From a virus, in the IMG/VR virus record IMGVR_UViG_3300046001_005979, positions 1 through 20,155 of that record: a stretch of DNA of 20,155 nt. One strand, 5' to 3'. The notes under the pieces are model-generated. The model searched no databases. It saw nothing but the letters and a program-made list of their open reading frames with translations, and had not been told where the DNA came from. This document shows, piece after piece, positions 1 to 20,155 of the stretch. Positions within the stretch are counted from its first letter, which is position 1. The number at the start of each line of letters is the position of its first letter. Made by a program: the position numbers and the translations under genes.

Positions 1-1196
1 CTGATGTGGGCGTAACAGTGGTATGCATATTTGTTAATGGTGACCGCAGCGAGGGATTTTACATTGGTGTAATTCCAGAGCAAGGTCTGGGAAACATGTA
101 CCCCGCAATTGCGGCAAGTACAAAATACAAAATAGGCAATGCCAATCAAGAAGCGTATTTTGCCAACTCAACTCGATTACCAGTAACTGAAATCAACATA
201 GACAACGATGCAATTTTTAATGATCCTAGATTTTTTGATCAAGAAAAACCTGTACACGGATATCTAGCACAGGCACTATTCCAACAAGGGTTAATTGACG
301 ATCTTGAACGCGGGACAATTCGATCTAGTAGCCAACGAGAAACACCCAGCGCAGTATTTGGAATCAGCACTCCAGGTATACCTATCTATCAAGGTGGTAT
401 GAATCCAAACGATATTAGACGAAAACTTGACGCAGGAGAAATTAAACCCAACCAAGCCAAAGTTATTGGTCGTGTTGGCGGACATAGTCTAGTAATGGAT
501 GACGGTGACCTCGACGGTGATAACGCACTGTTCCGATTACGCACAAGTCTAGGACACCAGATTACCATGAGCGATACTGGAAACTTTTTCTATATTGTTC
601 ATGCTAACGGACAAACTTGGTTAGAGTTTGGTGTTGAGGGAACTGTGGATGTATATGCCACAAACTCAGTAAACGTTAGAACCAAAGGCGATATTAACTT
701 GCATGCGGATCGTGATCTTAATATGTACGCTGGCCGCAGTGTAAAAATTAAAAGTAACGAAGATATGCAACTTGAGGCTACTACTAAAATGACATTAATG
801 TCTCAAGCTGAACTTACTGTTTATAGCAAAGCAGCCATTGGTGTAAAGGCCGACGGCACATTGACCATAAACAGTAACGGTGGCTCATGGGGAGCAGGCG
901 GCAGTTTAGTGTTGCAAGCCGGCGGCATTGATCTTAACGGACCGGCTGCTGGAAAAGTAGCAACCCCTAACCCACTAACAAAAACACTGCTTGATGATAC
1001 TAAATTTAGCACCAGCAAAGGATGGGAAGTTGCTCCAGAAGGATTAACAAGTATTGTTACTAGAGCACCAACCCACGAACCTTATCCTTATCATAACAAA
1101 GGTGTTGATGTTGAAGTTGAATTTGAGGAAGGAACGCCAAGCCCACCTCCAGGCGCTGTGCCTGTGCCAGCTGGCATAGAGATTGTGGCAAAATAA
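1..1196 (+). CDS. gp5: Baseplate hub/needle protein gp5-like, 5' partial, no lysozyme domain
   Basis: The frame is open at the left edge (codons in frame from base 3), so the true start lies upstream and 397 codons are visible. In T4-like phages gp5 trimerises to form the membrane-piercing spike below the tail tube. The first ~45 visible residues (VGVTVVCIFVNGDRSEGFYI) look like the end of the gp5 OB-fold. A linker follows, then from about visible residue 161 (GGHSLVMDDGDLDGDNALFR) a long run of short alternating beta strands (NVRTKGDINLHADRDLNMYA, SVKIKSNEDMQLEATTKMTL) typical of the triple-stranded beta-helix needle. The C-terminus has a THEPYPYH motif (1071-1094) and a Pro-rich tail. Only ~75-115 residues separate OB-fold and helix, so the T4-type lysozyme insert (~165 aa) is absent. 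The gene ends one base before the next ATG. The family call is confident; the end structure is inferred. Confidence 0.9.
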   Translation, partial: DVGVTVVCIFVNGDRSEGFYIGVIPEQGLGNMYPAIAASTKYKIGNANQEAYFANSTRLPVTEINIDNDAIFNDPRFFDQEKPVHGYLAQALFQQGLIDDLERGTIRSSSQRETPSAVFGISTPGIPIYQGGMNPNDIRRKLDAGEIKPNQAKVIGRVGGHSLVMDDGDLDGDNALFRLRTSLGHQITMSDTGNFFYIVHANGQTWLEFGVEGTVDVYATNSVNVRTKGDINLHADRDLNMYAGRSVKIKSNEDMQLEATTKMTLMSQAELTVYSKAAIGVKADGTLTINSNGGSWGAGGSLVLQAGGIDLNGPAAGKVATPNPLTKTLLDDTKFSTSKGWEVAPEGLTSIVTRAPTHEPYPYHNKGVDVEVEFEEGTPSPPPGAVPVPAGIEIVAK

Positions 1197-1197
1197 C

Positions 1198-2733
1198 ATG
1201 GGATCATTTTCTTTTACAACTACTGATGGAAAACCTTTTGAACTGAAAGGGCCGCCAAATTTCACGTTTGAACAAGCCAAAGCAATTTTTGACAAGCAAG
1301 CTGCAACTGGTTCATTGGTTGGGTTCAAACCCGGCGACGTGCTTAGTGCAGCATCTCAAGCAGCAAACGGACTAGCTGGTGCTCAAGCTACATTAACTCA
1401 GGCACTTAGCGGAGTAAACAACGCAGTTGGATCAGCCCTGGGCGGGGGTGCGCTAGGTGGAAGTTTAGTAAGTACCGCTGCCGGACTAACAGGTACAATA
1501 GGCCAAGCAGTATCGTCAATTGGAGCGGCTGGATCAGCAATTGCTGGTGCCGCAATTAATGCTACCTCAATAGCTGTAAACTCAGTAAAAAATATAAATC
1601 TTTCTTTGAACAGCTCAGTAACAAATCCCATCAACAATGCAGACTTTATTAAAACAGTATCTGATGGCGGTGCCGCATTATCTCAAATTGGATCCATGGG
1701 AGCGTCAGCTGTGACTGGTGTACTAGCACAAGGCAAAAAACTTGTGGGACAGGCCAGCGATGTGTTGAGCAATACCAAGGGTGTGGGGTCATTTGGGCTT
1801 GATGTTGGCCAACTTGAAACTGCTGGATTTTTAAAACCTGGAACATCAAAATTTATAGACTCTGGCGCACAAACAGTAAGCTCATTATTAAAATCTCCTG
1901 CTGTATGGACTGGGAAAGACGGAATAAAAAGTGTTACTGGAATACTAGATAACGCCGGCAAACAAAGTGCAATACAACAAGATTTAATGGCTAAAGGTGT
2001 TGCTGGACTTGGCGCACTGGGAGTACCAGTAAACAACTTATCTGCGCAAGGACTTGGCGGCCTAGCACTCAGTGCAGCAAAAAGCCTGCCCAACACTGAG
2101 GCATTTGTTAAAGGGCTGCCACTACCTGCAGATATTAAATCAACTATTGATAGCAATATTCGAGACGCTAGTTTTGCAGTAAACCTAGTTGATAACAAAA
2201 TGCCCCCAGCGTTTAAAGCAACTGATATTCCGGTACCTGCAACTGACACAGTAAATCGCGAAACACTAAACGCTGCAAGTGTTAGGATTTCTGGCAATGA
2301 AAAAATTCCGCCACCAAATTACGGACCCAGAGAAGACAACATTCAAGTCCAAGCCGAAGAATATGTATCTAAAGCTGCTATCCTCACCAATCAGTACATA
2401 AACGTTGCTGGTCGCGGACTTGAAGCAGTAAGTTCAAAACTAGCTGAATTAGAAAATCAACAAAGTATTACTCAACAAGCGTATGACGCAGTAAACAACG
2501 AATTCCAGAGTGTGCGTCAGGCCTACAATGCACAAGGTCCGGTATTGGCTGCTGAAGTTAATAGTTTATACCTGCGATTATCCGTAACACAACAGCGAGT
2601 AGTTGACACATTTGATAATTCGCCAAAGAAAACAGCAAGTGTAATATCATACTTGCTAGAGCAATCTAAGCAGATCAAAGAACGACTTAGAACTCTAGCA
2701 TTTAAAATTGAAGGCCGCGGCGGCGGCGAATAA
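1198..2733 (+). CDS. Unassigned Ala/Gly-rich phage structural-type protein between gp5 and gp25
   Basis: 511 aa; I do not recognise a named family. Residues 1-50 form a compact motif (TTTDGKPFELKGPPNFTFEQ, then TGSLVGFKPGDVL) like short N-terminal signatures I recall on other phage virion proteins. Residues ~50-330 are rich in Ala, Gly, Ser and Leu, with repeated hydrophobic patches such as VGSALGGGALGGSLVSTAAG. A Pro-rich linker follows (~335-385; KMPPAFKATDIPVPATDT, KIPPPNYGPRED). Residues ~385-505 are charged, Gln-rich and heptad-like (AAILTNQYI, LEAVSSKLAELENQQSITQQ, LLEQSKQIKERLRTLAFKIE), suggesting a coiled coil, and the protein ends in GRGGGE. Start: ATG 1198, one base after the gp5 stop. 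A TTG at 1183 is possible but would overlap gp5. No strong Shine-Dalgarno is visible, so coupling to gp5 translation is likely. The context suggests a hub- or tail-tip-associated protein, perhaps an ejected or chaperone-like one. The gene is real; the function is open. Confidence 0.85.
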   Translation: MGSFSFTTTDGKPFELKGPPNFTFEQAKAIFDKQAATGSLVGFKPGDVLSAASQAANGLAGAQATLTQALSGVNNAVGSALGGGALGGSLVSTAAGLTGTIGQAVSSIGAAGSAIAGAAINATSIAVNSVKNINLSLNSSVTNPINNADFIKTVSDGGAALSQIGSMGASAVTGVLAQGKKLVGQASDVLSNTKGVGSFGLDVGQLETAGFLKPGTSKFIDSGAQTVSSLLKSPAVWTGKDGIKSVTGILDNAGKQSAIQQDLMAKGVAGLGALGVPVNNLSAQGLGGLALSAAKSLPNTEAFVKGLPLPADIKSTIDSNIRDASFAVNLVDNKMPPAFKATDIPVPATDTVNRETLNAASVRISGNEKIPPPNYGPREDNIQVQAEEYVSKAAILTNQYINVAGRGLEAVSSKLAELENQQSITQQAYDAVNNEFQSVRQAYNAQGPVLAAEVNSLYLRLSVTQQRVVDTFDNSPKKTASVISYLLEQSKQIKERLRTLAFKIEGRGGGE

Positions 2734-2748: not shown

Positions 2749-3126
2749 ATGGCACAACGATTCATTGGTTTCAACACACAAGGGCAATACAAGAAGTTTA
2801 CTCTTACTGATTTCCCACTGATCAAGCGAGATTTGATCAACGCTTTTAATATTCGTCAGGGTCAGTTACCAGGACGTCCTGAATACGGAACTGTGTTGTG
2901 GGACTACTTGTTTGAAGGGCAGTTAGAAGAATTACAAGCTCAGATTACAAAAGAAGTGCAACGTGTAGCCGGCGGAGACCCTAGAGTCTACATCAGTGAC
3001 ATCCAATGTTACCCGCAGGAAAACGGAATTTTAATTGAGATAGAGTTAACAATTCTACCGTCTACTGATGCCGAGCGGCTAAGTTTATTTTTTGATGTCA
3101 CAAGTCGAGTAGCCTCCTACGTATAA
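2749..3126 (+). CDS. gp25: Baseplate wedge subunit gp25 (GPW/gp25 family)
   Basis: 125 aa, close to T4 gp25 (132 aa) and typical of the GPW/gp25 family. This small wedge protein binds the gp6 dimer and nucleates the sheath, and is homologous to T6SS TssE. Visible hallmarks are an N-terminal sheath-like segment (FTLTDFPLIKRDLINAFNIR), the signature EYGTVLWDYLFE at residues 45-56, a helix (LQAQITKEVQRVAGGDPR) and paired C-terminal strands (GILIEIELTIL). The start is ATG 2749, immediately behind a TATAAATA box. No Shine-Dalgarno lies in the short gap before it. It is followed 46 bases later by gp6, its direct partner in the wedge. High confidence. Confidence 0.95.
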   Translation: MAQRFIGFNTQGQYKKFTLTDFPLIKRDLINAFNIRQGQLPGRPEYGTVLWDYLFEGQLEELQAQITKEVQRVAGGDPRVYISDIQCYPQENGILIEIELTILPSTDAERLSLFFDVTSRVASYV

Positions 3127-3172: not shown

Positions 3173-6100
3173 ATGGCAACCACAACAAGACAAACAGCAA
3201 TATTTGGAATTGAGGACTGGAAACAGATCTATCAAACCTATCGCGAAGCAGACTTTCAAAGCTATGACTTTGAAACTCTACGCAAAAGCTTCGTTGACTA
3301 TTTGCGTTTGTACTATCCAGAAACATTCAATGACTACATTGAATCGTCAGAGTACATTGCTTTATTAGACGTAATTGCGTTCATGGGACAAGCACTTGCT
3401 TTCCGTACAGACTTGAACACACGTGAAAACTATATAGACACAGCAGAACGTCGTGATTCTGTTGTAAGACTTGCTAATCTTGTTAGCTATACTGCAAAAA
3501 GAAACACCGCTGCCCAGGGCTTGCTCAAGGTGTTTTCAGTTACAACAACTGAGAACGTTGTAGATTACAACGGGGTTAATTTGAGCAACGTTACCGTGGA
3601 CTGGGCAGACCCTACAAACCCAGACTGGCAAGAACAATTTACTTCAATTATCAATGCTGGTTTAACAAGCACCCAACGAGTTGGCCGACCAGGTAATCGC
3701 AACACTATTTTAGGTATTCGCACTGACGAATACGCAATTAATCTTGTGCCGGGATTTTTGCCAATAGTACCGTACACTTCTGTTGTTGACGGGGTGAGTA
3801 TGCCGTTTGAGGCCATGAGTTCTACCAGCACAGGACAAGATTACTTGTATGAGCCTGCGCCTCAAGCCAACCAGCCATTTAATATACTGTTCCGCAACGA
3901 TAGCTTGGGATTCCAGTCAGCAAACACTGGTTACTTTTTTATGTTCAAGCAAGGTGTGTTACAAAATCAAGACTTTAACCTAGCAGAGCGCATTAGTAAT
4001 CGCACAGTGAATATCAATATTGAAGGTGTCAACAACGAAGACCGTTGGCTGTTCCAGTTGGACAATGTGGGTACTGTCACACGTGAGTGGGAATATACTG
4101 AAAATATCTACGCCGCGGCAGCCGAACAAGTTGGTACAACACTACGCCCAATTTACTCAGTAACAAGTCGAACAAACGACCAAATTACAATGGTATTTGG
4201 TGACGGCACATTCTCTGAAATTCCAGTAGGTACGTTCCGTGCGTATGTGCGTGCCAGCAACGGATTGCAATACATTATTAATCCTGAAGAGATGCAAGCA
4301 GTAACTATTCCAATCAGTTACATTGACCGTAGCGGCAACTTGCAAACTATCACTTTTACTTGTGGCATCACAAGCCCGGTAAGCAATTCACAAGCCCGCG
4401 AAAGTATTGATTCTATCAAGCAAAGTGCTCCAGCCCGTTTCTACACACAAAATCGCATGGTTAACGGTGAGGATTACAACCTGTTTCCATACACTCAGTA
4501 CAACTCAATTGTTAAGAGCAAAGCTCTTAATCGTAGCAGTATTGGAACTAGTCGTTATCTAGACTTAGTAGATAATACAGGCAAGTACTCATCAACTAAT
4601 ACTTTTGGCAGTGATGGTGGTTTATGGGAAAATAATATTGTACCAACAATTTTGTTTAGCTGGACTACTCGCAATGAAATTGCTGACGTGGTTACAAACC
4701 AAGTGCAACCTCAATTGGCTGAAAGCACCATGCGTCAATTTTATTACGCAAATTTTCCTCGACAAAATGCCAACACTGGGACAACAGCACTTTCGACCTG
4801 GAACCAATCAACCACACTAGCAAACGAAACAACTGGTTACTTTAAAAATGCTAGCGGAACCCCAATCCCGGTTGGCGCTACCACAAGTACTGTGTTCCAA
4901 TATGCTGTTGTGGGCAGCTTGATTAAGTTTGTGGCGCCAACTGGCTACTACTTTGATCGCAACAACAAGTTACAGCAAGGTACTCCAACCCGATCTGACG
5001 AAACAACAGAAATCTGGGCAAGCCCAATGAGTATTCAAGGTGACGGATACAATAACGGTATTGGTAATTTAAGTTCGGGTTCGGGACCAATTACTCTCAA
5101 CAACTTTGTACCAACTGGTGCTATTGTCGACACTATTATTCCGCTGTTTGTTACTGACTTACCACTGAGTCTCGAACAATCAATTGCAGAACAAATTGTA
5201 TTGTATCGTAATTTTGGCCTTGGATACGACAACGACGGTGCAATCACTGGCGTACCTTACACATGGTATTTGATTACATCAACTAATCTTGCCCAAGATA
5301 GTATTTGGAGTCAAGCAAATGCTGGAAGCACTGCTGGAACAAATAGTGATGCAAGTTGGTTAATTCAATTTGTAACTGAAAATCAAAACTATACTATTAC
5401 ATTCCGCGGCCTAGCATATTACTTTGGGTCAGTTTTACAAACACGATTCTTCTATTACGGAGACCAGCAAATCTATGATAGCCGTACTGGAACAGTTATT
5501 CGCGACTACATTAACTGTTTAGCGGTGAACACGCAGCCTGATTCCACACAAAGTCTACCAGGTGACATTTTTATGACTATTACTGGTCAGCCTGTGGAAA
5601 GTGATGGCTACGTTGATGACTTCCAGGTCTTGGTTGGATTCCGAGACAGTGACAACGACGGAGTCCCAGACAACCCAGACTTCTTTACTGAGATTGTTGC
5701 ACCTACGGTCAACTCTAATCAAAAATACGTGTTCTTGCAACAAACAGTGGACTTTGATAACCTACAACGATATCTGTTAGTGGACCAAGGTATTGTGAAT
5801 AGTGACTATGCTACTCTTGATGACATTGAGCTAGTTAAGTCTGAGTGGAGCCCAGGACAAGTATTCTATGCCTACACTGATCAATTGTTTTATGAATTAA
5901 GCGTAGGCACCACAGGAGTTCGGACAATAGTTGCTGTTCAAGGATGGATTGCTCGCACTGGTCGCCAGGACTTGTACTACCAGTACCGTCACAACTCACC
6001 GTTGACTAATCGTATTGACCCCGGCACAACAAATATTATTGACTTGTATGTAGTGACGTTATCATATTACACAGCATATCAAAACTGGATCCGAGATACC

Positions 6101-6604
6101 ACTGGTACTGTTATAGAACCAGACCAGCCAACTATTGATGAGTTATCAACAGCTTATCAAGGTTTAAATAACTATAAGATGATTAGTGATAATATTATTT
6201 TAAACAGCGTTACATTTAAACCGTTGTTTGGAGAAAAAGCTGCAAGTAGTTTACGTGCCACTATTAAAGTTATTCGTGCTAGCAACTCAACTGCTAGCAC
6301 AAGTGAGATTAAGACTGCGGTTGTTTCAGCAATGAATGAGTATTTCTCTATTGACAAATGGGACTTTGGTGACACTTTCTATTTCTCAGAATTAGCTGCG
6401 TACCTACACGATCAGTTAGGTACAATTATTAGTAGTGTGGTATTAGTGCCACTTGACACACAAAAGTACTTTGGTGACTTGTACGAGATTCGCAGTCAAC
6501 CAAACGAAATTTTTGCAAACGGTGCAACAATCAACAACATTGATGTAATCGAAGCATTGACCAGTACCAACTTGCGTACTGCCCCAGGTAGCGGAGTAAT
6601 TTAA
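3173..6604 (+). CDS. gp6: Baseplate wedge protein gp6, enlarged
   Basis: 1,143 aa against about 660 aa for T4 gp6. gp6 forms the dimeric core of each wedge (with gp25 and gp53 or gp7) and the inner ring that re-arranges on contraction; it belongs to the Baseplate_J-like group. The N-terminus carries the expected helical segment ([40 protein letters not shown]). Family-like motifs are [13 protein letters not shown] at ~341-353 and [18 protein letters not shown] at 419-436. The C-terminal dimerisation part is recognisable at ~1060-1093 ([29 protein letters not shown]). The extra length is mainly between about 480 and 930, rich in Thr/Asn/Tyr beta-type sequence, and includes a DxDxDGxxxD-like loop at 825-833. 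The start is supported by a GAGG Shine-Dalgarno, and the TAA stop shares a base with the next ATG. High confidence in family; the role of the enlarged middle is unknown. Confidence 0.95.
5645..5680 (+). other. Calcium-loop-like Asp motif inside gp6
   Basis: gp6 residues 825-836 read [12 protein letters not shown]. The spacing of D825, D827, D829, G830 and D833 fits the DxDxDGxxD loops that bind Ca2+ in thrombospondin type-3 and dockerin-like repeats. There is a single copy, in the enlarged middle part of the protein. Metal binding is inferred from the motif only. Confidence 0.5.
6593..6596 (+). promoter_or_regulatory. Ribosome binding site of the giant gene (GGAG)
   Basis: GGAG lies seven bases before ATG 6604, inside the last codons of gp6. 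With the TAATG overlap (6602-6606) it indicates that gp6 and the giant protein are translated from the same message, probably coupled. Confidence 0.7.
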
Positions 6605-9600
6605 TGGCCCTAACACGTTCGGTAGATTTTCTACCAGAAATTTTTCAAACTGATGCTAACAAGCAATTCCTGGCCGCTACACTTGATCAGTTAATACAAG
6701 AACCTAAGTTTAAAAAAACCCAAGGCTTTATTGGTCGTACTGTTGGCCCGGGCGTGAACCCCAACGACAAATACGTTGTAGAACCCACAACAGTACGTGC
6801 TAACTACCAACTTGAACCAGGTGTGGTTAGTCTTGAGCCCGACACTGACAGAATCAATGATGTTATCACATACCCTGGACTAAATGATGCCATTGGGTTT
6901 CAGAACGGCAATCCGGCTCGCCCCGACCGCTTGTACCAAGGTGAATATTACTCGTGGGATCCGTTTGTTAACTTTGACACCTTTGTTAACTTTTCACAAT
7001 ATTTTTGGTTGCCTGGCGGTCCCAGTGTAGTTGATGTTCACGCAACTGGCATTCCTACCACTGCAAATTTTAATGTTACTCGTGAAAATGGCGTTTACAC
7101 ATTTTCTGGCGTTAGTGGAGAAAATCCTACCATTGAGCTAGTACGAGGCGGTAGCTACACATTCCAAGTAGCACAAAACGCCAAAGAGACCGTGAACTAT
7201 CGAGTTCGCAATTCAGGAATTGCTGCGTATGTAATTGATTTTCAAAATAATCCAACGCTTACGTTATCCCGCGGAAATACGTATGTGTTTAATCTTACAC
7301 TTGATGGCAATTACCCTTTCTGGATTAAAACGGCACCAACTACTGGTACTGCGGATGCGTACAACAGCGGTGTTACACGAAACGGCTCACTAACTGGCCT
7401 GGTAACATTTACTGTGCCACAAACTGCGCCAGACACATTATACTATGCCAGTGCTACGCAAAGCAACATGCAAGGTGTACTAAACATCATTGACGGTACT
7501 CCTGGCACCGGACCTGGTTTTTGGATTCAAAGCGCACCCGGCATAAGCGGTGTTTTACCAGCAACTCCAAATATCAGCAGCCGAGAAGTTTACGGTGTTG
7601 AGAACAACGGTGAAGATCTTGGCATTATAACTTTTAATGCGCCAGTAAAGACCGCTCAAGATTTTTACTATAACCTAACAAGTATTGGCACAATTGATTT
7701 AGTTACTTCTCTAAATTTTGACGAGATTAACAATCAATCAGTTGAAGCATTTATTGCCCAGTACAATGGCATTGACGGCATCACTAACCTTGACGGTCGG
7801 ACACTAATTTTTACTAACCCAGTAACAGATGCAACTGAAGGTGGTTGGCTACGTACCACACTATTTGATCCATTACCACAAAACAGTTCAAGCAATGGTA
7901 ATCCTGGAAGTTTTGATACTGTGCCATTTTCTGAAACTACTGAAATTCCAGAATCGCAACGATATCAAAAATGGCAGATTAGCTACGTAAACAATGCCGG
8001 TGTTAATTACATTAATCTTAGCCTTGTTGCAGACATTAATCCATTAGAAAAATTCACAATTGCATATGGTGCTGTAAACAGTAGCACTCAATGGTATAAA
8101 GATCCTACAGGAACATTTTTAGAAATTCCTGTGCTTACAGCTATACAAAATACACTGTATTACCAAGACGGGACTGATCCAGATATTTTTGGAACAATTA
8201 AATTAGTTGAACCTGCTGGATCAGAAACCCTGATAGTAACTGATATTATTGGCAAAAAAACATACACCGCCCCAAACGGCGTAAGTTTTTCAAATGGCCT
8301 TAAAGTAAGATTTACTGGCGATATTGAACCTGTTAGCTACAAGTCAGGTACATCAACAATTACCTATACACAAACTGAGGCTGGCACAAATTATATTTCA
8401 ACCCCAGATGCCGAAGTGTTGTATGTTGGACAACAAATTGTATTTGCTAGCCCAAGTCTTGGCGGCCTAGTTGCTGGCCAAACATATTTTGTTCGAAGTA
8501 TCGCTGCAAGCGGCCTTAAATTTACTGTTAGTGCTATTGAAAATGGCCCAGCAGTAACGTTACAATACGGAACTGGAAGTGCTACTGCTACAGGTATTAG
8601 TAATCTTGAATATTATGTAAGCGGGGTAGGTACTGCAATTGAGTTATTGCCTACAACAAATTATGTTACTCCAGAAACCTATGTTGAAGATGCTTTTGAT
8701 AGTACTATTGCTACAGAACCGGACCAACCAGATTATCTAACAATTGATCGTGCAAGCAAAGATTTAAACGCTTGGACCCGCTCAAATCGCTGGTTCCACC
8801 TAGATGTTATCAATGCCGCAGCAGCATATAATAATACCACAGCAGTATTTGATAACAATTACCGCGCCAAGCGTCCAATTATTCAATTCCGGCCAGGCAT
8901 CCGCTTGTGGAATATGGGCACCAATGGCAAAGCACCAATTAATATTATTGACTTTGAAGAAACTGATGCGTTTTCTAATATTGAAGGCAGTACTGAGTAC
9001 AAGGTATACGACTCTCCCATCCCAACAACTACATTTACAATTGGGGTTCAATACGAAATTGTTACTATTGGAACTAGTGATTGGAATACCATTGCTGGCA
9101 CAAGCGGAGTTATATACGTACCTGGTGACATTATCACAGCACAAGTTATAGGTATTGGTAACGGAACTGGCCGTGCGTTCTACGAACTTGCTGAGGGAAC
9201 ACGAATAATATTTGCTGCTGACGAAGATTCAGAAGTACGTAACAAAATTTGGATAGTTAGTTTTGCAACACCTGATACACTAACTCCGCTAATTGATCAA
9301 CCAATTATTACATTGACTCTTGCTGACGATGGCCTTGTGTTGTTTGATGAAAGCACCGTGGTGCTTGACGGACAAGCAACCAAAGGCAAAACATATTGGT
9401 ATGATGGCACTGCTTGGACCGAAGCACAACAAAAAAACAGTGTACAACAAGCACCGTTGTATAACGTGTACGACCCACAAGGTGTGAGTTTTGGTGACAG
9501 CACAAAATACCAATCAACTACTTTTACTGGAAGCAAGTTGTTTAGTTATGCAGTTGGTGATACAAATGTACTTGACGTAATATTACAATTTCCGTTGCAG

Positions 9601-12600
9601 TATCTAAATATCAACAACGTTGGTGATATTGTTTTTGAAAACAACTTATACAAAGACACTTTCTTGTATGTGGTTGATAACGTTTCAGTAACTAGTGATA
9701 TTAGCTCAGGCTCAATTAGAGAATACAATACTATTGATACCTTTGAAAAATTGTTGGGCTGGCAAACTGGTATAACTGAAACTAAAATTTATCAACAATT
9801 TAAATTTACATACGCTGGCACAACTTTAAAACTTGACGTTGCAGTGAACAATCAAGTTATAGAAGCTGTACCTGTTCTTAAAATTTATGTAGGTAGCCAG
9901 TTTCAGGATCCAAGCACATATACATACAACAATACTACCACAGCAAATACCACAGTTATCACGCTGAATGGCAATTACGTTATTGGCGACATCATTGAGG
10001 TTCTTGCATTAAGTGACCAAACTAGCCAAGTTGCATTCTACCAAGTTCCAAGTAACTTAGAAAGCAACCCTCTCAATGCTAATAGTCCTAGCTTTACGTT
10101 AGGAACCATTCGCACACACTATCAGAGTATTTGCGAAAACTTGTTAACATTGTCTGGACCTATTAATGGCTCAAACAACACTCGAGATCTTGGTAATATT
10201 GTTCCTTACGGCTTGACTATTTTACAACAAAGTGCGCCATTAACACTTGCTGGCTATTTTATGCGTAGCCAAGACTATAATATTTTTGCAGCGTTACAGT
10301 ATAACAGCCGTGAATACACTAAATTCAAAGCACAAATGCTTGACTCGGTATTGAGTCAACTCATATTTGATCAAACAGTACCAGTAATTTTAAACACTGC
10401 GTTACAAAATATAACTCTTGGAAGATTAGATACCCAACCATTCTATTGGAGTGACATGTTGCCAGCTGGCGTTACTACATACAGTAATACGTATACAGTG
10501 GGCTTTACAACATCTTCTATATTTGATACTGTGCAGATTTATAACTATACATCTGCAAACTATCTTGGGTTGTTAGTATACAAAAATGGTGTGCTATTAA
10601 CAAGAGATGTAGGGTATACTGTTGCTACTGATGGTCCTCGAGTTACTATCCTTGAGTCACTAGTTAACGGCGACAAGATAACTATCAACGAATATGCTGC
10701 TACATACGGTAGTTTTGTTCCTAATACTCCAACTAAGTTGGGATTATACCCAGCCTGGGAACCAAAAATTACTATAGAGAAAACCAGCACCAACGACGAT
10801 GTTACTGTAATTGTAGGGCATGACGGAAGCATTACTAAAGCATTTGGCGATATTCGTGATGACGTTCTGCTAGAGTTTGAGCAACGAATCTATAACAATT
10901 TAAAATTAGACGGAAACCCAGTACCACTCACAATTGAAGACGTGCTACCTGGTCAATTTCGTAGTACTGGATTTACATTTGAAGAAATTAACACTATCTT
11001 CTCTCAAGATTTTTTGAGCTACTGTGGCTGGAATAAATTAGATTACAAAACACAAACATACAGTGCTACAAATGAGTTTACTTACAATTATAGTACAGCT
11101 CAAAACAAACTCAACAATGAAAATTTGTTGGGCGCTTGGCGCGGTATCTATCGTTACTTCTACGACACTCAGCAACCTAGCTTAACTCCATGGGAGATGT
11201 TAGGACTTACTATTGAACCAGCTTGGTGGGAAGATCGTTATGGTACTGCTCCGTATACCACAGACAACTTGGTTCTTTGGGACGATTTAGAAGCTGGCTA
11301 TGTTGCTGATCCAATTGCACCGTATTATCGTCCAGACTATGCACGTCCTGGACTAACACAAGTTATTCCAACTGGTGATGAAGGACAACTGTTAAGCCCT
11401 CTTGATTCAGTGGTTGGAACTTATGATGACCAACAATTTCAAAAGTCATGGGCACTCGGTGACGGCGGCCCAGTAGAAGCTTCTTGGTATAATAGCTCTA
11501 GCTATCCATTCTCAGTAATGCATGTTCTTGCAGTGACTCGTCCTGCTAAGTTTTTTGCATTGTTTGCTGACCGAGATCTATACAAGTTTAATACAGATTA
11601 TGATCAATATCTGTACAACAACCGTTATCGGTTAGATGCCAACGGTGTTGAGGTCTACGGCAATGGAACATCAAAAGCTAGTTATATTAACTGGATGGTT
11701 GACTATAATCGCCTTACTGGAATTGACTCAACTGACATACTAACTGCTGCGCTAAAAAGTTTAGATGTGCGTTTATGCTATAGAATGGCAAGTTTTTCAG
11801 ACAAACAATATATTAAATTGTTTACTGAAAAATCAAGCCCAAACAGTACCAATGCTACTTTGATGATACCTGACGAAAGCTACAACTTGCTTTTGTACAA
11901 AAATCAACCGTTTGACAGAACATTGTATAGCTCAGTTGCTATACAAAAAGTTGAAGGGGGTTATGGTGTGTTTGGTTACGGTAATGCTCAACCATATTTT
12001 AATATTCTCCAAAGTAGCACCGCGGGCAAACTACAATCAATATCAGCTAATAATATAACAGTTCTTGTGCCTACATTTTATACAAATACAGTAGTACAAG
12101 TGCCTTATGGATTTATTTTTAGTAACGAAACAAGTGTTTGCGATTTCTTGTTAAGCTATGGTAAATTATTAGAAACTCAAGGACTAACTTTTACCAATAT
12201 TGATAACGGTTACGTACTTGACTGGACCCGCATGGCACAAGAATTCTTGTACTGGGCTGGGCAAGGATGGGGAGTTGATGCTATCATTAATATCAACCCA
12301 TTGGCGGCAAAAATTGCAATCACTCGTGAATTGGCTGTGGTTGATAGCGTTCGCGCAGAGACTACTGAAAATTTAATTCTAGATCAAAATTCTAGAGAAA
12401 TTGCTAGTCGTAATTTAAATGTTGTGCGCCTGGGAAATTATTTCTCAGCTGAGGCTCTAAGCACACAAAGTATTAGTTATATTGATTTACGATTTACAAA
12501 CTACGAACACATGATTGTTTTAAACAATCAGTCTGTGTTTGGAGACTTAGTATACGATCCAACAACTGGTGCAAGACAAAGTCGATTAAACTTGGTAGCA

Positions 12601-15600
12601 GTTACCAGTGACGACTGGAACGGTAGTGTAGACGCTCCAGGTTTTATTATCAATCAAGACAACGTTGAAGAATGGACTGGGTTAAAGAAATACACCAAAG
12701 GTGAGATTGTCAAGTACAAGAACGTGTATTGGTCAGCTCTTGCTATTATAGAGCCAAGTGCAAATTTTGATTTTAATTTGTGGGCACAGAGTGACTACAC
12801 ACAAATTGAACTAGGGTTGTTGCCTAACTTGTCTAACAAGGCTAACCAACTGGTTAACAGTTATAATATTAATACTGCCAACATTGAAGGCGACAACGAT
12901 TTGTTATCGTACGGATTAATTGGCTTTAGACCTCGCCAGTATATGGCAGCACTTAATCTTGACGATGTAAGCCAAGTTAACGTGTATCGTCAATTCCTTG
13001 GCACAAAAGGAACTGTGCTTAGTACTGAATTGTTTAAACAGGCTAACCTTGGCAAAGAATCTGCGGATTACGACATTTATGAAAACTGGGCAGTACAACG
13101 TGCTGTTTACGGTGCCAACGCTAACCGTAGTTATTTTGAATTACGTTTAGATCGTGCATTGCTAAATGCCAATCCTAGTTTAGTACAAGTAGTGTTACCG
13201 CAACAGGTTAGCGAAGCTGATGAGCAGATTCTATTATCTAATGTTTGGAGACAAAGTTACAAATTAACTAGTCCTGATATTTTACCAACCACTACATCAC
13301 TACCAACAGATATTGGATTGCCAACGGCTGGTTATGTAAAGTTAGACGACGCAGATATCACTGTGTTTGATATTAACGACCCTACCAGTCTTGCTGAAAA
13401 TATTGACAGCATTGAGGTTGGCACCAGTATTTGGGTAGCCAAAATTAACAGTTACGATTGGAACATTTATCGCGCTCAATCTGTACCTGGCGTAATTCAA
13501 CACGTTTGCGACAACTTGAATGGCACTAGCCGTGCAATTTTTTCAGCGCAGCATGGCCTTAGTACTGGCGATAAGTTAATTATTAAATTCTTTGACACCG
13601 AGATTGACGGCGTCTATCAAGTGTTATCAGTTGTTAATTTAACTACAGTAAACATTGCGTTTCAATTTTCTGGCGACCGAGCTGTTGCTAACGGTAGCGG
13701 ACTAGGGTTTACTTTACAAACTATGAGAGTTTCGCAAGCAAGTGACATTATTAACTTGCCATATGCTAATGCTATCACCCCTGGGGCAAAAGTTTGGGTT
13801 GATGACAACGGTTCAGGATTATGGGAAGTGCTAGAAAAGAACGAAGTATTTACTGACGTTGTTGGACTAAGCCCAGTTCTACTTGATGCTGGTGAACAAT
13901 ACGGTCAAAGTATTGCTCAGGCACAAAATCGATTGGCAGCATTTATTGGTAGTCCAAAGTATGGATTTAATGCAGGCACTGAAAAAGGTGCATTGTATGT
14001 GTATGTTAAATCATACGGTGATCAATACCAACCAGTTAGTCCGCTGTCCGACGAAGATTCAATCCTTACCCTAGACGGAACTGGAGTACGTGGCTACGGC
14101 AACGCTGTGGACTTTGGCAATCAAACCTGGGCCATTGCTGGTGCAAGCAAGAGTCTTGGACCAACAAGCACTGCTAATAATGGATATGCCTGTGTTATCT
14201 ATCGTGACCCGTCCCTGGGCCAAGCCGGAGCAATTCCGTTTGCACAGTGGCAATTATTAACCCAACCTGGTACTACAACTACTACAACTCCTGGTGCTGG
14301 CGAGTTTGGGTATAGTGTGGCAATGAGTCTTGACGAGCGTTGGATGTATATTGGTGCTCCAGGATTGAATCAAGTTCATGCATACGGTCGTGTTGATTAC
14401 CAAGACCAGTTTGTTCGTGCTCGAGGTGACGGTGTTACAAAAAGATACGTTATCAGCAACACTATCCAAATTAATGCAGCTACACAATTAAAAGTTTCAG
14501 TTGATGGAACTGTGCAATTTTTAAATATTGATTATACTGTATCAAGTGATCTAGGCACTGTGACATTTGTTACAGCTCCTCCGCTAGATAAGTTAGTTGA
14601 CATCCAACGACTGTACATTCAACAACTTGACGCACAAACTTATTACGAAGTTACGCAAAGCGCAACATCTGGTAGTGGTGTTGGTGCTAAGTTTACTATT
14701 GTTCGCCAACGAGGCGAAGTTGGGCAGCCAGGCGCTACAGTTGGAAGCGTGGGCGCAACTAGCTCAGGATCAGGGTATGCACCTGGTAATACAATTACTA
14801 TTGCTGGTGCAAGTTTTGGCGGCACCAACGATATCACATTAACTATTACCAGTATTGGTACAGGCGGCACCCTGGGCAATTTCAACATTGCATACACCCC
14901 GCCAGCACTAGCAAGTACATTTTCGCTGAATGAATACTTCTTTACGGCTACTACAATCAATAGCTTTAGCGTTAGTGTCAACAATGTATTACAACGACCA
15001 AATATTGATTATACTTTTAATACTGGCACAAAAGATATTTCTTTTTACAACAATCCAGGTTCAGGCACCACTATTCTTGTTAACGCACAAGGGTATTTTG
15101 AATATGTGGGTAGTATAACTGCAAGTGGACTAAGTGCCAGTGATAGATTTGGCCACAGTGTAAGTTGCACTACTGACGGTCGCCAAGTAGTAATTGGTAC
15201 TCCTTACAGCACTGTTAGTTCCAGTGGCGAAGCTGGTAACGTGTATGTGGTTGACCGTAATGTACAGCGTTTTATCTATGGTGAAGATGGAAGCACAATT
15301 AATTTTACTTTACTTGGTACACCAGTTGGGCCAATTAGTGTAATTGTTAATAATGTGTTCTTGGTTAACGAAACTGATGCAACAGTGAGTGCGCCTAATA
15401 GTTTTTACTGGAACGGTGCAAGCACAGTCACAGTTAACGCCGACTTAAAGATTGGTGACGTAATTGAGATTGAAACTAACCAGTTTGCGCAAATACAAAA
15501 AGTGCAACAGAACATTGTTGCTGATTTTTCTAACTTTGGGCAAGCAGTTGAAGTATGCCCATACAACTGTAGCTTATATGTTGGAGAACCGCAAAGCAGT

Positions 15601-18600
15601 ATTCAAATTTACAAAGGTGGCGTGGTTGAGCGCAGTGTAAATCAAAGCCGAGTATACGGCACTATTACTAACACAGTTGCTAACGCAAGTCTTACCAGTG
15701 GCAATACTATTCGTGTAAACAACATGGATGTGATAGTACCAACCACTTGGAACAGTGCATCAACATACAGTAAAAATACTGTGGTGTACAATACTGTGGG
15801 TTCTACTACAACTATCTATGTTGCTGCAATTGCTGTACCTGCGTTAACTGCAATCACAAACACATCATATTGGACAGTGGTTACAACTACTACTGTATCT
15901 GCAAGTGCAAAAGTGCGTGCTCTAGCCGCACAAATTAATGTCAATGTTCCAAACGTCAGCGCCACAGTCAGCACTACTGGTTATCTAACTATTGCTGTTA
16001 AAAACAGCAATGCCGCGCCAGAATTTGATAAAGTCCAAGTAGCCCCCGGCAGTGTTGGAACCGCATTTGCTGATTTAGTATTTGAAACATTTGTTTGGAC
16101 ACAAACAATTGAAAACCCATACCCAATTGCATTTTCAGCGTTTGGCAGTAGCATAAGTGTTGACGACAATGCCACAAACATTGTTGTTGGCGCACCACAA
16201 GGTACATTGTATCTAGAAGCTGTGTGGGATGACGGAACTACTATTTGGGACTCAGGCAGCACAATATTCTTTAGTGTTACTGTTCAAAGCGGTGCCGCAT
16301 ACACATTTGACTATCTGCCAAGTTCAACACTGGTTGTAACAAATCCAGGCAAGTTTGTATTTGGGCAACAAATTACAAGTAGCGAAGTTGCATCGTACGA
16401 TGCATTTGGTACTGCGGTCAACTACACTGGCGGCGTGTTAATGGTTGGTGCACCAAAAAATGATGCTGGTGATTCAACTGCTGACTTTGGCGCAGCTTAT
16501 GTTTTTGAAAACGTAACTAGATCACCTGCTTGGTCAGTATTGACAGAACAGCAACCAACTGTAGATATTAGATTGCTTAATACATCCTTCTTGTACGATA
16601 GCATTACTAGTGAAACTTCAACATTCTTAGATTTTATTAATCCGTTGCAGGGCAAAGTACTTGGGGCCGCACGTCAAAATATTGATTATATTGGCGCAGT
16701 TGATCCTGCAGCATATAATGTTGGACCTGTAAATGTACGAGGTACTACCTGGAGCGCAAACCACGTTGGTGAAATTTGGTGGGATACTAGTAGTGTTCGA
16801 TTTATTGATCCTAATCAAGATGATATTGTATATGCAAGCCGTCGATGGAGTCAAGTGTTTCCTGGGTCAACTGTAGACGTATATCAATGGATTGTAAGCG
16901 CAGTGCCGCCAGCACAATATGCTGGCGAAGGCACACCTCTAGATACACTAAGCTACACTGTAAACGCACGGTTAACCACACAAGGTACATTTACTACAGA
17001 TTATTATTTCTGGGTTAAAGGTATCACTGTTACGTCAACTAAAATTGGCAAGACATTGCCAATAAGCACAGTCGCTAGTTACATTGAAAATCCCAAAGCA
17101 TCAGGTATTCCTTACCTGGCGCCTATAAACGCCAGCACAATTGCATTGTACAACAGTGGCGATTATATTGCAGCCAGCGATACAATTATTAACATTGAAT
17201 TTGATCGCCAGCTCACAAGCGACAACGTACACGTTGAGTATGAGTTAATTCCACAAGACCGCAAAGATGGATTCTTGAGTGCAAACTTATATCGTAAATT
17301 ACAAGACAGCTTTTGTGGAGTTGACACATTTGGTAACTTGGTTCCAGATCCTAATCTAGGTGTTGCTGAAAGATATGGTGTACAGTTTAGACCACGTCAG
17401 TCAATGTTTGTAGATCGTTTTGCAGCGTTGAAGAATTACTTGACTCGAGCAAATACTGTGCTAGCACAGTACACAATTAGTGAAAGTCGAACATTTAACT
17501 TACTCAATAGTGCTGAAGCCAAACCTAGTGCTAACTCAGGACTTTGGAATTTACAAGTTACTAACTTAGAAATCTTGGGCTTCCAAAATATCTACACAGT
17601 GCCACTGGGCTACAAATACCTAGTAGATACTGACAGCAGCAACCGTGGCTTATGGACAATATACACAGTGCAAAACAGCGATGTAACTCTTGGTGAAAGA
17701 GTGCTGGTATTAACTAGAGTACAAGGTTACAATACTCCTGACTATTGGAGTTATATTGATTGGTACCGTGTTGGATACAACTCCAGTACAAAAGTAATTG
17801 CTGAAGTTCTTACATACAGTAGTTTGACTACATTGTCAGTTGCTGTGGGTAGTTCAGTTAAAGTCACAGCCAATGCTCAAGGTAAATGGGAAATCTATTT
17901 ACTTGAAGATACTGGCTGGAGTCGTGTTGGATTGCAAGATGGTACTATAGAGTTCTCAGCAGAACTATACGATTATGCACTTGGTCGATTTGGGTTTGAC
18001 GTTGAAGTTTTTGACGCACAATATTACGACCAAGAACCTGTGATTGAAACACGCAACATTATTCAAGCAATCAATCAAGAATTGTTTGTTGACGATTTAG
18101 CAATTGAGCGCAACAGATCCCTTGTACTGATGTTTAATTTTGTACTAAGCGAATTCTCTGCACCTGAATGGCTAGTCAAGACATCACTAATTGACGTTGA
18201 TCACAGAATTCGAGAACTATTACCATTCCAAAATTACAGTCGTGACAACCAAGAATTCGTGTCAGACTACATCCAAGAAGTCAAACCGTACCACGTGAGT
18301 GTCCGCGAATTTAACTTGAAGTACACCGGCTTTGACAGTTTCCGTGGCGACCTTGCAGACTTTGACGTACCTGCGTTTTATGACACCACATTAGACACCC
18401 CGCAGTACACTAGTCCAATATTGCTGCCATATCTACACAGTACCAGCTTTAATGCAGCGTTTAATACTGCAAGCGATACTCCAGCATCAAGCCAATTGTG
18501 GGAACAATGGCCGTACAGCCAGTGGTATAACAATTACTTTTTGAGTCTTGATAGTATTGACATGGTAGAATTTGGCGCAGGTTATTCTGAGCCTCCGGTG

Positions 18601-20155
18601 GTTACTATTGAAGGCGAAGCAACTGAACCAGCAGAAGTTACTGCAATTATTAACGGCTCTGGGCAAGTGGTGTCAATTGTGGTTAACAATCCTGGTTCTG
18701 GTTACAGTGCAACCCCAAGTATTGTTTTTGATGGTGGCGGTGGCTCAGTTACAACTGTAGCAAGAGCTTACCCAATTATGACCGGCCAAGGCTTAGGCCA
18801 AAACTACAGTGCATCCGAAGTTGCAGTGACCCAAGATTCATATAACTTAACACGCAGTTTCCGCACAGTTATCAAATACGACCGTTTCCAGTACTTCAGT
18901 GATGTACAAGATTGGAACGCATCTGCAACTTATCAAGATGGCACACTGGTTCGATATGACAATCGTGTATGGCAAGCATCAAGTACAGACTCAACTGCGG
19001 TAGTTGGCCCAACATTTGATCTTGAAGACTGGACCTTGGTCAATGCCGGAACGTTTAACAACGGCCTGGGACTAACTGGTGTAGACCGTACCATGGGTTT
19101 GTATGTTCCGGGCGTGAACTCTCCTGGACTAGAACTTCCATTGCTGATTGACGGTGTTGATTACCCAGGCGTGCAAGTTTATGGTGATTACTTCCTGGGT
19201 AATCCTGCGTTCATTGACGCACAGTACGAAAGTGCATTTACTGATACAACATTAGGCGACACATTTACTAGCGTTAACGTTGATGGCGGTGAGTTTATTG
19301 GCCTATACGAAGGCCATGCCCCAGAAGAATTAGTTAACGGGGCAGAATTTGATACGTTGGACTTACGAGTATATACTCGTCCTGGTAGCGACTGGAGTTA
19401 TGATGGTCATGGCTTTCAGCTAGGCAGCGTTCGTTATGTTTACGAAGCAGCAATTACTGACACGTATAGTTGGGCAGGCGTAGTCGATAACCCCGTGCAA
19501 GTGTTAGTAAGCAATCAAACAACTGGCGAAGACCTTGCACTTAATATCAATTACACTGTTAATTGGATTAATCAAACAGTTACTCTTGACCTTGGCGTTG
19601 GTGATGGAGAAGTAATTAATATTACTGTGTACGAACTTGGCGGAGGCAGCCAGTTATATCGTGACAATTATCTTGGTACAATTGGTAATAATGTAACCAT
19701 ACCAGTCAACAGCGCAGAAATTTCTGACGTAGCAGTGTTTGTTAATGGCAACGCAATTACACAAGGTATTACCTGGAAGCCATATATTGACAGCACTGTA
19801 TGGAATATCTTGAATACCTATAGCCGCCAAGACAATGTAAATAACTCTGCAGAATTTACAGGATCAATTACAGACACTACGTTAACCATTACTGCTGTCT
19901 CTACAGGTACAGTTGTTGTTGGTCAAGAAATAAGTGGTACTAATATTTTACCTGGTACCGTAATTACTGCATCAATTACTGGCATTGGCGGAACAGGAAC
20001 ATATACAGTAGACCAATCACAAACAGTAGCTAGCACAAGCATTACTACAAACGAACAATTTTATCGTGCGTTGCAATCTGTCCCAACTGGCGTGAACATT
20101 ACTAATACCGCGTATTGGTATAATTTTATTCCAACTTTAGAAACGCTAGTAGAAT
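6604..20155 (+). CDS. Giant mosaic virion/baseplate protein (3' partial, at least 4,517 aa)
   Basis: The frame from ATG 6604 has no stop to the right edge, so length is unknown but at least 4,517 residues. Start support: GGAG seven bases upstream and a TAATG overlap with gp6. It sits where T4 has wedge genes 7 and 8. I see no T4 gp7 likeness by eye, but stretches resemble giant structural proteins of T4-like aquatic phages (from memory). Backbone blocks: 1-140 ([20 protein letters not shown]), ~1400-1550 ([41 protein letters not shown]), ~2070-2150 ([15 protein letters not shown]), ~3340-3430 ([13 protein letters not shown]), ~3880-3915 ([20 protein letters not shown]), ~4155-4270 ([19 protein letters not shown]). 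Between these lie inserted beta modules listed separately. The composition is Thr/Asn/Tyr/Gly/Val-rich and beta-type; I saw no long helical or membrane segment. Likely a late virion protein forming the outer baseplate and host-contact surface; the exact role is inferred. Confidence 0.93.
7123..7671 (+). other. Cupredoxin-like module nested in a second copy of itself
   Basis: In the giant protein, residues ~174-191 ([16 protein letters not shown]) begin a module that is completed only at ~306-356 ([11 protein letters not shown], then [26 protein letters not shown]). In between, residues ~216-296 hold a complete version of the same pattern: [50 protein letters not shown]. The two series align segment by segment, so a module appears inserted in its own relative. 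The fold name is from memory of phage 'RG-TY-F...FWI-T-P...TF-VP...LYY' domains. Usual Cys/His ligand positions read ASATQSNM here. Confidence 0.6.
8392..8595 (+). other. 'VGQ-I-F...[10 protein letters not shown]' beta module in the giant protein
   Basis: Residues ~597-664 read [39 protein letters not shown] and GSATATG. This is a small all-beta module I recall as widely scattered in phage tail proteins. Its own function is unknown; it probably acts as a spacer or decoration. Confidence 0.45.
9034..9186 (+). other. '[12 protein letters not shown]...GNGTGRA' beta module in the giant protein
   Basis: Residues ~811-861 read [40 protein letters not shown]. The pattern matches a short module, recalled from many phage structural proteins, of the form Y-I-x-x-x-GTTDF...FTATGxGTGTG. 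Function unknown. Confidence 0.45.
12673..12786 (+). other. CBM5/12-like module 1 in the giant protein
   Basis: Residues ~2024-2061: W-x5-Y-x2[14 protein letters not shown]...P...NLW. This is the aromatic layout of small chitin-binding-type (CBM5/12) modules, which occur in many phage tail and baseplate proteins. Glycan binding is an inference. Confidence 0.45.
14271..14288 (+). repeat. Two tandem 9-bp units (TACTACAAC) in the giant gene
   Basis: TACTACAAC occurs twice in a row, flanked on both sides by CCTGG. It encodes [10 protein letters not shown] in the linker between propeller blades 2 and 3. The unit length preserves the frame, so copy-number change would lengthen or shorten the linker without breaking the gene. 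Confidence 0.6.
14407..15117 (+). other. Insertion between propeller blades 3 and 4 (three beta modules)
   Basis: It contains a 'V-V-DG...DYT' module (14407-14610: [20 protein letters not shown]), a GSGY-type module (14656-14892: [42 protein letters not shown]) and a second 'V-NN...DYT' module (14911-15117: [18 protein letters not shown]). Each is of a kind recalled from other phage tail proteins. Together they make a large loop leaving the propeller. Confidence 0.5.
15748..15882 (+). other. CBM5/12-like module 2, inserted between blades 5 and 6
   Basis: Residues ~3049-3093: [15 protein letters not shown]...TIYVAA...ITNTSYW. Same W...Y...V-Y...Y-A...YW layout as the other CBM5/12-like modules here, with a slightly longer middle loop. 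Binding is inferred. Confidence 0.4.
18562..18771 (+). other. Two tandem 'GxGY...P' repeats in the giant protein
   Basis: Residues ~3987-4056: [19 protein letters not shown] followed by [20 protein letters not shown]. Both units share [N/E]-x-GxGYxxxPxxx[I/V]. This is a short beta repeat recalled from many phage baseplate and tail proteins; function unknown. Confidence 0.55.
18913..19041 (+). other. CBM5/12-like module 3 in the giant protein
   Basis: Residues ~4104-4146: [20 protein letters not shown], then QASS...GPTFDLEDW. This is the clearest match in the window to the compact CBM5/12 layout (W, Y-x2-G-x-V-x-Y, W-x-A, P, W). Carbohydrate binding is inferred. Confidence 0.5.
19801..20124 (+). 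other. CBM5/12-like module 4, split by a 'VGQ-ISG' module
   Basis: The first half reads [18 protein letters not shown] (19801-19854) and the second [20 protein letters not shown] (20059-20118). Joined, they make a complete W...Y...D-V...FYRA...YW module. Between them lies an intact foreign-looking beta module (19855-20049): [49 protein letters not shown], a type common in phage tail proteins. Confidence 0.55.

Follow-up and report, generated by a model that had tools for sequence, protein, structure and literature searches.

The window considered here, the whole 20,155-base stretch of the IMG/VR record IMGVR_UViG_3300046001_005979, is a fragment of an uncultivated phage in which genes for a gp5-like protein, gp25, a gp6-like wedge protein and a giant virion protein follow one another, with one unassigned gene before gp25 (Table 1). 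The giant open reading frame (ORF) matches phrog_10938 (virion structural protein) in three pieces (E 1e-76, 1e-130 and 7e-64) and is incomplete at its 3′ end only, its complete relatives having about 4,700-5,300 residues. Inside this ORF lies the subject of the present analysis, a seven-bladed FG-GAP propeller with modules in its loops. As the preliminary description of this DNA had proposed, the propeller is established at the family level, through Pfam matches, motifs, predicted strands, Foldseek and hhalign comparisons.

Table 1. Genes of the window and parts of the inserted propeller (positions are those of the window)
Feature	Position	Strand	Basis
gp5-like hub/lysozyme remnant	3-1196	+	
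Ala/Gly-rich gene of 516 residues, following the gp5-like gene and preceding gp25	1183-2733	+	
gp25	2749-3126	+	PF04965, 27.3 bits
gp6-like wedge protein	3173-6604	+	phrog_10646, E 1e-279
Giant virion protein ORF, 4,517 residues, running off the record at its 3′ end	6604-20154	+	
Scaffold hairpin, last shared residues before the propeller (residues ~2395-2412)	13786-13839	+	aligned with L320 and PA5oct
Inserted block, propeller and modules, ~890 residues (residues 2413-3304)	13840-16515	+	absent from L320
Blade 1, YGQSIAQ...IGSP	13894-14073	+	motif, model strands, hhalign
Blade 2, YGNAVDF...AGAS, weakest sequence kinship	14089-14268	+	motif, model strands
Blade 3 strands 1-3, FGYSVAM...IGAP	14299-14397	+	motif, model strands, hhalign
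Insert 1, blade 3 strand 3-4 loop	14398-15069	+	model strands, relatives
Insert 1 outer modules, T7-tail-fibre-like	14410-14607 and 14890-15069	+	
Insert 1 Gly-rich module, between the outer modules	14617-14889	+	
Blade 3 strand 4	15070-15123	+	model strands
Blade 4 strands 1-3, FGHSVSC...IGTP	15133-15276	+	Pfam 34 bits, model strands, hhalign
Insert 2, blade 4 strand 3-4 loop	15277-15456	+	model strands, relatives
Blade 4 strand 4	15457-15513	+	model strands
Blade 5 strands 1-3, with invariant Cys pair	15529-15648	+	alignment, model strands, hhalign
Insert 3, blade 5 strand 3-4 loop: outer domain with nested W..YW module	15649-16086	+	model strands, relatives
Nested W..TY..NT.YW module	15745-15891	+	relatives, F2-pyocin tail-fibre likeness
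Blade 5 strand 4	16087-16119	+	model strands
Blade 6, FGSSISV...VGAP	16135-16380	+	motif, model strands, hhalign
Blade 6 strand 2-3 loop, poorly predicted	16201-16287	+	
Blade 7, FGTAVNY...VGAP, plus W-strand where the scaffold resumes	16396-16554	+	Pfam 37 bits, model strands, hhalign

The giant ORF was searched for the motif [FY]G.[SA][VIL]...G.[PS], slight deviations being tolerated. This motif occurs exactly seven times, as previously counted, all within residues 2431-3304 (starting at residues 2433, 2498, 2568, 2849, 2978, 3180 and 3268) and nowhere else in the ORF, against a mean of 0.006 and a maximum of 1 in 5,000 shuffles of the region. FG or YG is present in all seven motifs and the GAP-type proline in six, blade 2 reading GAS. 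An FG-GAP profile search, also suggested in the preliminary description, gave a score of 67.2 bits across the propeller stretch for the Pfam family FG-GAP_2 (PF14312; curated cut-off 23 bits), and four stretches pass that cut-off alone. Among the isolated blades, 4 and 7 score above it (34 and 37 bits), blades 1, 3 and 6 give in-register matches below it, and blades 2 and 5 show no FG-GAP match. Blade-to-blade comparison by hhalign, with profiles built from 42 relatives, linked blades 1, 3, 4, 5, 6 and 7 with one another in the same register; for most pairs the probability was 70-97%. Control pairs of a blade with a module or with the scaffold gave nearly always 0.1-7%, the exception being the end of blade 7 against a scaffold hairpin (39%, E 3e-4). 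None of the blades carries a DxDxDG calcium loop, the sole match to D.[DN].[DNS]G being DDNGSG at residue 2400, in the scaffold hairpin. As a separate observation, the hairpin between strands 1 and 2 of blade 5 holds a CPYNC pair (residues 2985 and 2989; window 15556-15570), both cysteines of which are invariant in 42 of 42 aligned relatives and could mark a disulphide or a metal site.

An AlphaFold2 model of residues 2380-3340, computed from an alignment of 42 sequences and with the inserts left in, reached a predicted local distance difference test score (pLDDT) of 86.7 and a predicted template modelling score (pTM) of 0.87. Its strand list gives four strands per blade in all seven blades, with two candidates (residues 2418-2422 or 3310-3316) for the fourth strand of blade 7, and closure of the predicted ring is likely. 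When the model was compared with the PDB by Foldseek, the best match was the propeller of integrin alpha-5 (E 2.6e-9, probability 1.00), with a template modelling (TM) score of 0.51-0.57 by target length, the whole alpha-5 propeller being aligned, over nearly the entire query. A profile search of PDB sequences returned sub-threshold matches only, seven of eight being integrin alpha chains. In BFVD, phage and giant-virus FG-GAP proteins are among the matches, one of them a 411-residue giant-virus protein with a TM score of 0.73 by its own length.

For blades 3, 4 and 5 the next motif comes about 280, 129 and 202 residues later, respectively, versus about 65-90 residues for plain blades, in agreement with the insertions of roughly 240, 90 and 170 residues first estimated. 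These had been placed between blades 3/4, 4/5 and 5/6, a location that has to be revised: since the model puts the inserts between strands 3 and 4, they lie inside blades 3, 4 and 5. Homology links the two outer modules of insert 1 (E 2.5e-10), which also show weak similarity to the N-terminal domain of the T7 tail fibre, and the W..YW module nested in insert 3 matches a solved F2-pyocin tail fibre (E 4.7e-4). This last module was also considered as a chitin-binding CBM5/12 domain, a candidate rejected in favour of the better F2-pyocin match, since Pfam matched it weakly and in just 3 of 14 members (best E 0.0012); the module is accordingly not presented as carbohydrate-binding. Hairpins of the form VWV......W.VY/L, which by eye resemble strands 3-4 of FG-GAP blades, recur in the scaffold (13426-13476 and 13786-13839), and the second of them aligns with the end of blade 7.

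The occupied slots were counted in scans anchored on the scaffold flanks instead of on the propeller. A propeller is present in all 77 slot-spanning loci of one count and in 70 of 71 of the other, a few of the most distant showing only part of the seven blades by profile. The exception is the relative L320, in which the flanks are joined by a short stretch (...KVWIDSNSNGKYDTYEK-KSGTWTSTREEID...), versus about 890 residues at the slot of the window; the sequence of phage PA5oct reads across the slot similarly. Moreover, L320 has a W-strand at the point where the scaffold of the window resumes. Because of this strand, and of the resemblance between the end of blade 7 and the scaffold hairpin, a strand of the scaffold itself may complete blade 7. 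In a tree of the upstream scaffold, obtained by a quick method and with long branches, L320 is the sister (support 88) of the 73 other, propeller-bearing relatives, and the isolate phages fall outside. The basal position of this empty site favours one gain after the L320 branch followed by retention, and suggests that about 890 residues were inserted in a single event into the protein encoded after gp25 and gp6. The propeller is thus an insertion into an older scaffold, a point on which the earlier view is corrected.

Propeller-anchored and flank-anchored scans were pooled into a set of 129 distinct proteins, with the blades located by their own profiles. All seven blades occur in the same order in every one of them, and the spacings between blades shift in jumps, not smoothly, with steps at 65/130/200 residues for blades 1-2, 70/150 for 2-3, 187-200/250/280/353/408 for 3-4, 128/215 for 4-5, 150/200/217/260 for 5-6 and 88/110/158 for 6-7. 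L026 and L075 carry the W..YW module in blade 1, in the loop between strands 2 and 3, and L163 has both this module and a further addition between blades 1 and 2. The W..YW module is absent from its nested position in blade 5 in about half of the relatives, with another module there in L313 and L306, and it also appears near the C terminus of other relatives, which makes three different sites in all. L090 carries a different module in the loop of blade 2, L063 a Gly-rich module in that of blade 4, and in L045, L096 and L165 an unrelated module stands in place of the Gly-rich module of the window's blade 3; L029 and L136 lack that Gly-rich module. Different modules therefore share one site and one module occupies different sites; in line with the interchangeable modules first proposed, the propeller stays constant while modules come, go and replace one another at set places on it. 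What looked like missing propeller segments in L096, L100 and L117 proved to be a BLAST artefact. Outside the propeller, a module of the form Y.I...GTSDW..I.G, by eye of the same type as the blade 3 replacement in L045, L096 and L165, lies at about 9000-9150 of the window (residues ~800-850), where it is mostly absent from the relatives.

With regard to the carriers, the contigs of the relatives reach 364 kb, and they are therefore jumbo phages. The gp6-like protein of the window is nearest to those of jumbo phages such as Atu_ph07 and 121Q (about 33% identity). Nucleotide and tblastn searches of isolated phages with the window and the propeller stretch gave no match, a propeller profile search of bacterial genomes found no relative, and family searches (Pfam, PHROG) with the product of 1183-2733 gave no credible match. 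The PA5oct homologue of the giant is a virion protein according to its annotation and to electrospray-ionization tandem mass spectrometry (ESI-MS/MS), and gp245 of phAPEC6, taken as a homologue by size and neighbourhood, is a 381.9-kDa protein detected with 17 peptides by mass spectrometry and encoded beside the wedge gp244 (PMC7247149). Gene order and these data point to a baseplate-region (tail-tip) virion protein. To that extent the initial assignment to the baseplate stands, but no similarity to T4 gp7 was found (hhalign probability 0.3%). The gene of T4 gp7 comes directly after gene 6, as the giant follows gp25 and gp6, and the two differ in size (1,032 vs about 5,000 residues).

The best-supported working model, to which we would give about even chances, is that of a rigid ring at the periphery of the baseplate displaying exchangeable tail-fibre-type modules. 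An FG-GAP propeller of the integrin-alpha type would have been inserted once into the gp6-adjacent giant of a jumbo myophage lineage and kept since, forming a rigid and exposed ring at the baseplate edge with the blades as its constant part. The modules would be borne by the strand 3-4 loops of blades 3, 4 and 5 and, in various relatives, by the strand 2-3 loops of blades 1, 2, 4 and 6. Being small and of tail-fibre type, they would contact the host surface or neighbouring fibres, and would be exchanged between phages. More tentatively, and at somewhat below even chances, this could be a fixed multi-site display ring with swappable recognition modules on both faces, in which host range evolves by module swaps, as a convergent counterpart of the alphaI domain.

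Several points weigh against such a display ring. Blade 2 is an outlier for which hhalign finds no homology to the other blades, its assignment being based on the motif, predicted strands and conservation. The superposition on integrins is loose, with a root-mean-square deviation of 14-18 Å, and the model of the distant relative L323 is poor (pLDDT 69.6) and matches assorted propellers, integrins not being favoured, probably as a result of an alignment mixing proteins with and without insert 1. Blades, insertion and module turnover were computed, whereas we infer ring closure, virion place and contact function. Finally, other parts of the giant protein contain modules of these families too, and their presence alone therefore does not single the propeller out as receptor-binding. 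This fact would also fit an architectural part, either a spacer or a wedge-to-wedge or wedge-to-fibre joint, whose loops merely tolerate phage modules spread among giant tail genes by recombination, with no contact with the host. Such a part, which we regard as possible though rather unlikely, would also account for a scaffold that gains and loses pieces outside the propeller as well, for blades about as conserved as that scaffold, and for phages with the same scaffold that manage with a small or different filling of the slot. However, turnover is concentrated at few propeller loops and several of the modules are tail-fibre-like, which exceeds the needs of a neutral spacer.

Propeller folds commonly dock proteins, and T4 gp7 is the attachment point for peripheral wedge proteins. 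Blades holding a separate tail-fibre or accessory protein, with the modules as adaptors fitting different fibres, would suit a giant that occupies the place of T4 gp7 by synteny; a docking socket of this kind appears improbable. Lastly, a chance or degenerate run of FG-GAP-like motifs with no propeller, to which the lack of FG-GAP matches for blades 2 and 5 alone might be ascribed, is hardly credible in view of the shuffles, the Pfam score, the hhalign links, the AlphaFold2 model, the Foldseek match to integrins and the seven blades kept in 129 proteins.

Tail fibres and spikes are where the receptor-binding diversity of phages is usually looked for. The display ring that we favour would be a concrete place to seek host-range change in uncultivated phages, as a conserved ring with modules turning over in the main protein of the baseplate region of uncultivated (freshwater) jumbo phages, the succession of events being fixed on the tree by the empty-site relative L320. 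In the open-access literature, to which the search was confined, no paper was found linking FG-GAP with a phage baseplate, nor a jumbo phage with integrin and propeller. An alphaI module in an FG-GAP propeller and a stand-alone integrin-like protein in jumbo phage AP-J-162 were already known; what is new is the combination of a propeller inserted into a gp6-adjacent giant with several exchangeable modules.

Among known systems, the giants of six jumbo phages (PA5oct gp355, 121Q gp582, GAP32_230, Atu_ph07 gp180, Phosso 294 and SCTP-2 140) have the same gene neighbourhood and a scaffold homologous to that on either side of the propeller, but they contain no FG-GAP motif, their slots being filled with about 90-1,550 residues of other sequence. 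In SCTP-2 (L085, residues ~2010-2350) this filling looks LamG-like by eye, but it gave no Pfam match. Apart from its slot, the Sinorhizobium phage Phosso (PV764938.1, L351) has two adjacent unannotated giants (48338-57826 and 57900-68978) that hold most of its 42 FG-GAP_2 matches and may be strings of several propellers. Near 92-94 kb, further matches fall in two ORFs with about 400-430 residues each. Stand-alone 'hemagglutinin' propellers of jumbo phages, separate proteins of about 375-395 residues not fused into a gp6-adjacent giant, are represented by gp213 of Sinorhizobium phage AP-J-162, reported as similar to human integrin (PMC11242549), and by gp320 of Agrobacterium phage Atu_ph07, which has FG-GAP_2 matches and is one of the BFVD matches of the model (TM score 0.60 by target length) and whose gene lies near tail genes. 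The FG-GAP proteins of giant viruses of protist hosts (Harvfovirus, Megaviridae and others) show the same fold in the predicted-structure search, in other protein contexts.

The closest parallel is offered by the integrins, whose propeller criteria were taken from PMC3192720. Integrin alpha-5 (PDB 4wk0/4wk2), the top Foldseek match, likewise has seven FG-GAP blades of four strands, and alphaI integrins also carry a module in the propeller, the ligand-binding alphaI (vWA) module being inserted between blades 2 and 3 (PMC3192720). Unlike them, the phage propeller is viral, lies within a structural protein of about 5,000 residues and holds inserts in several blades at once, in both strand 3-4 and strand 2-3 loops. 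The missing calcium loops also set it apart from integrin-type propellers proper, in which several blades have a DxDxDG loop joining strands 1 and 2. It offers a further, independent instance of an FG-GAP propeller from which modules bud, like that of the alphaI integrins.

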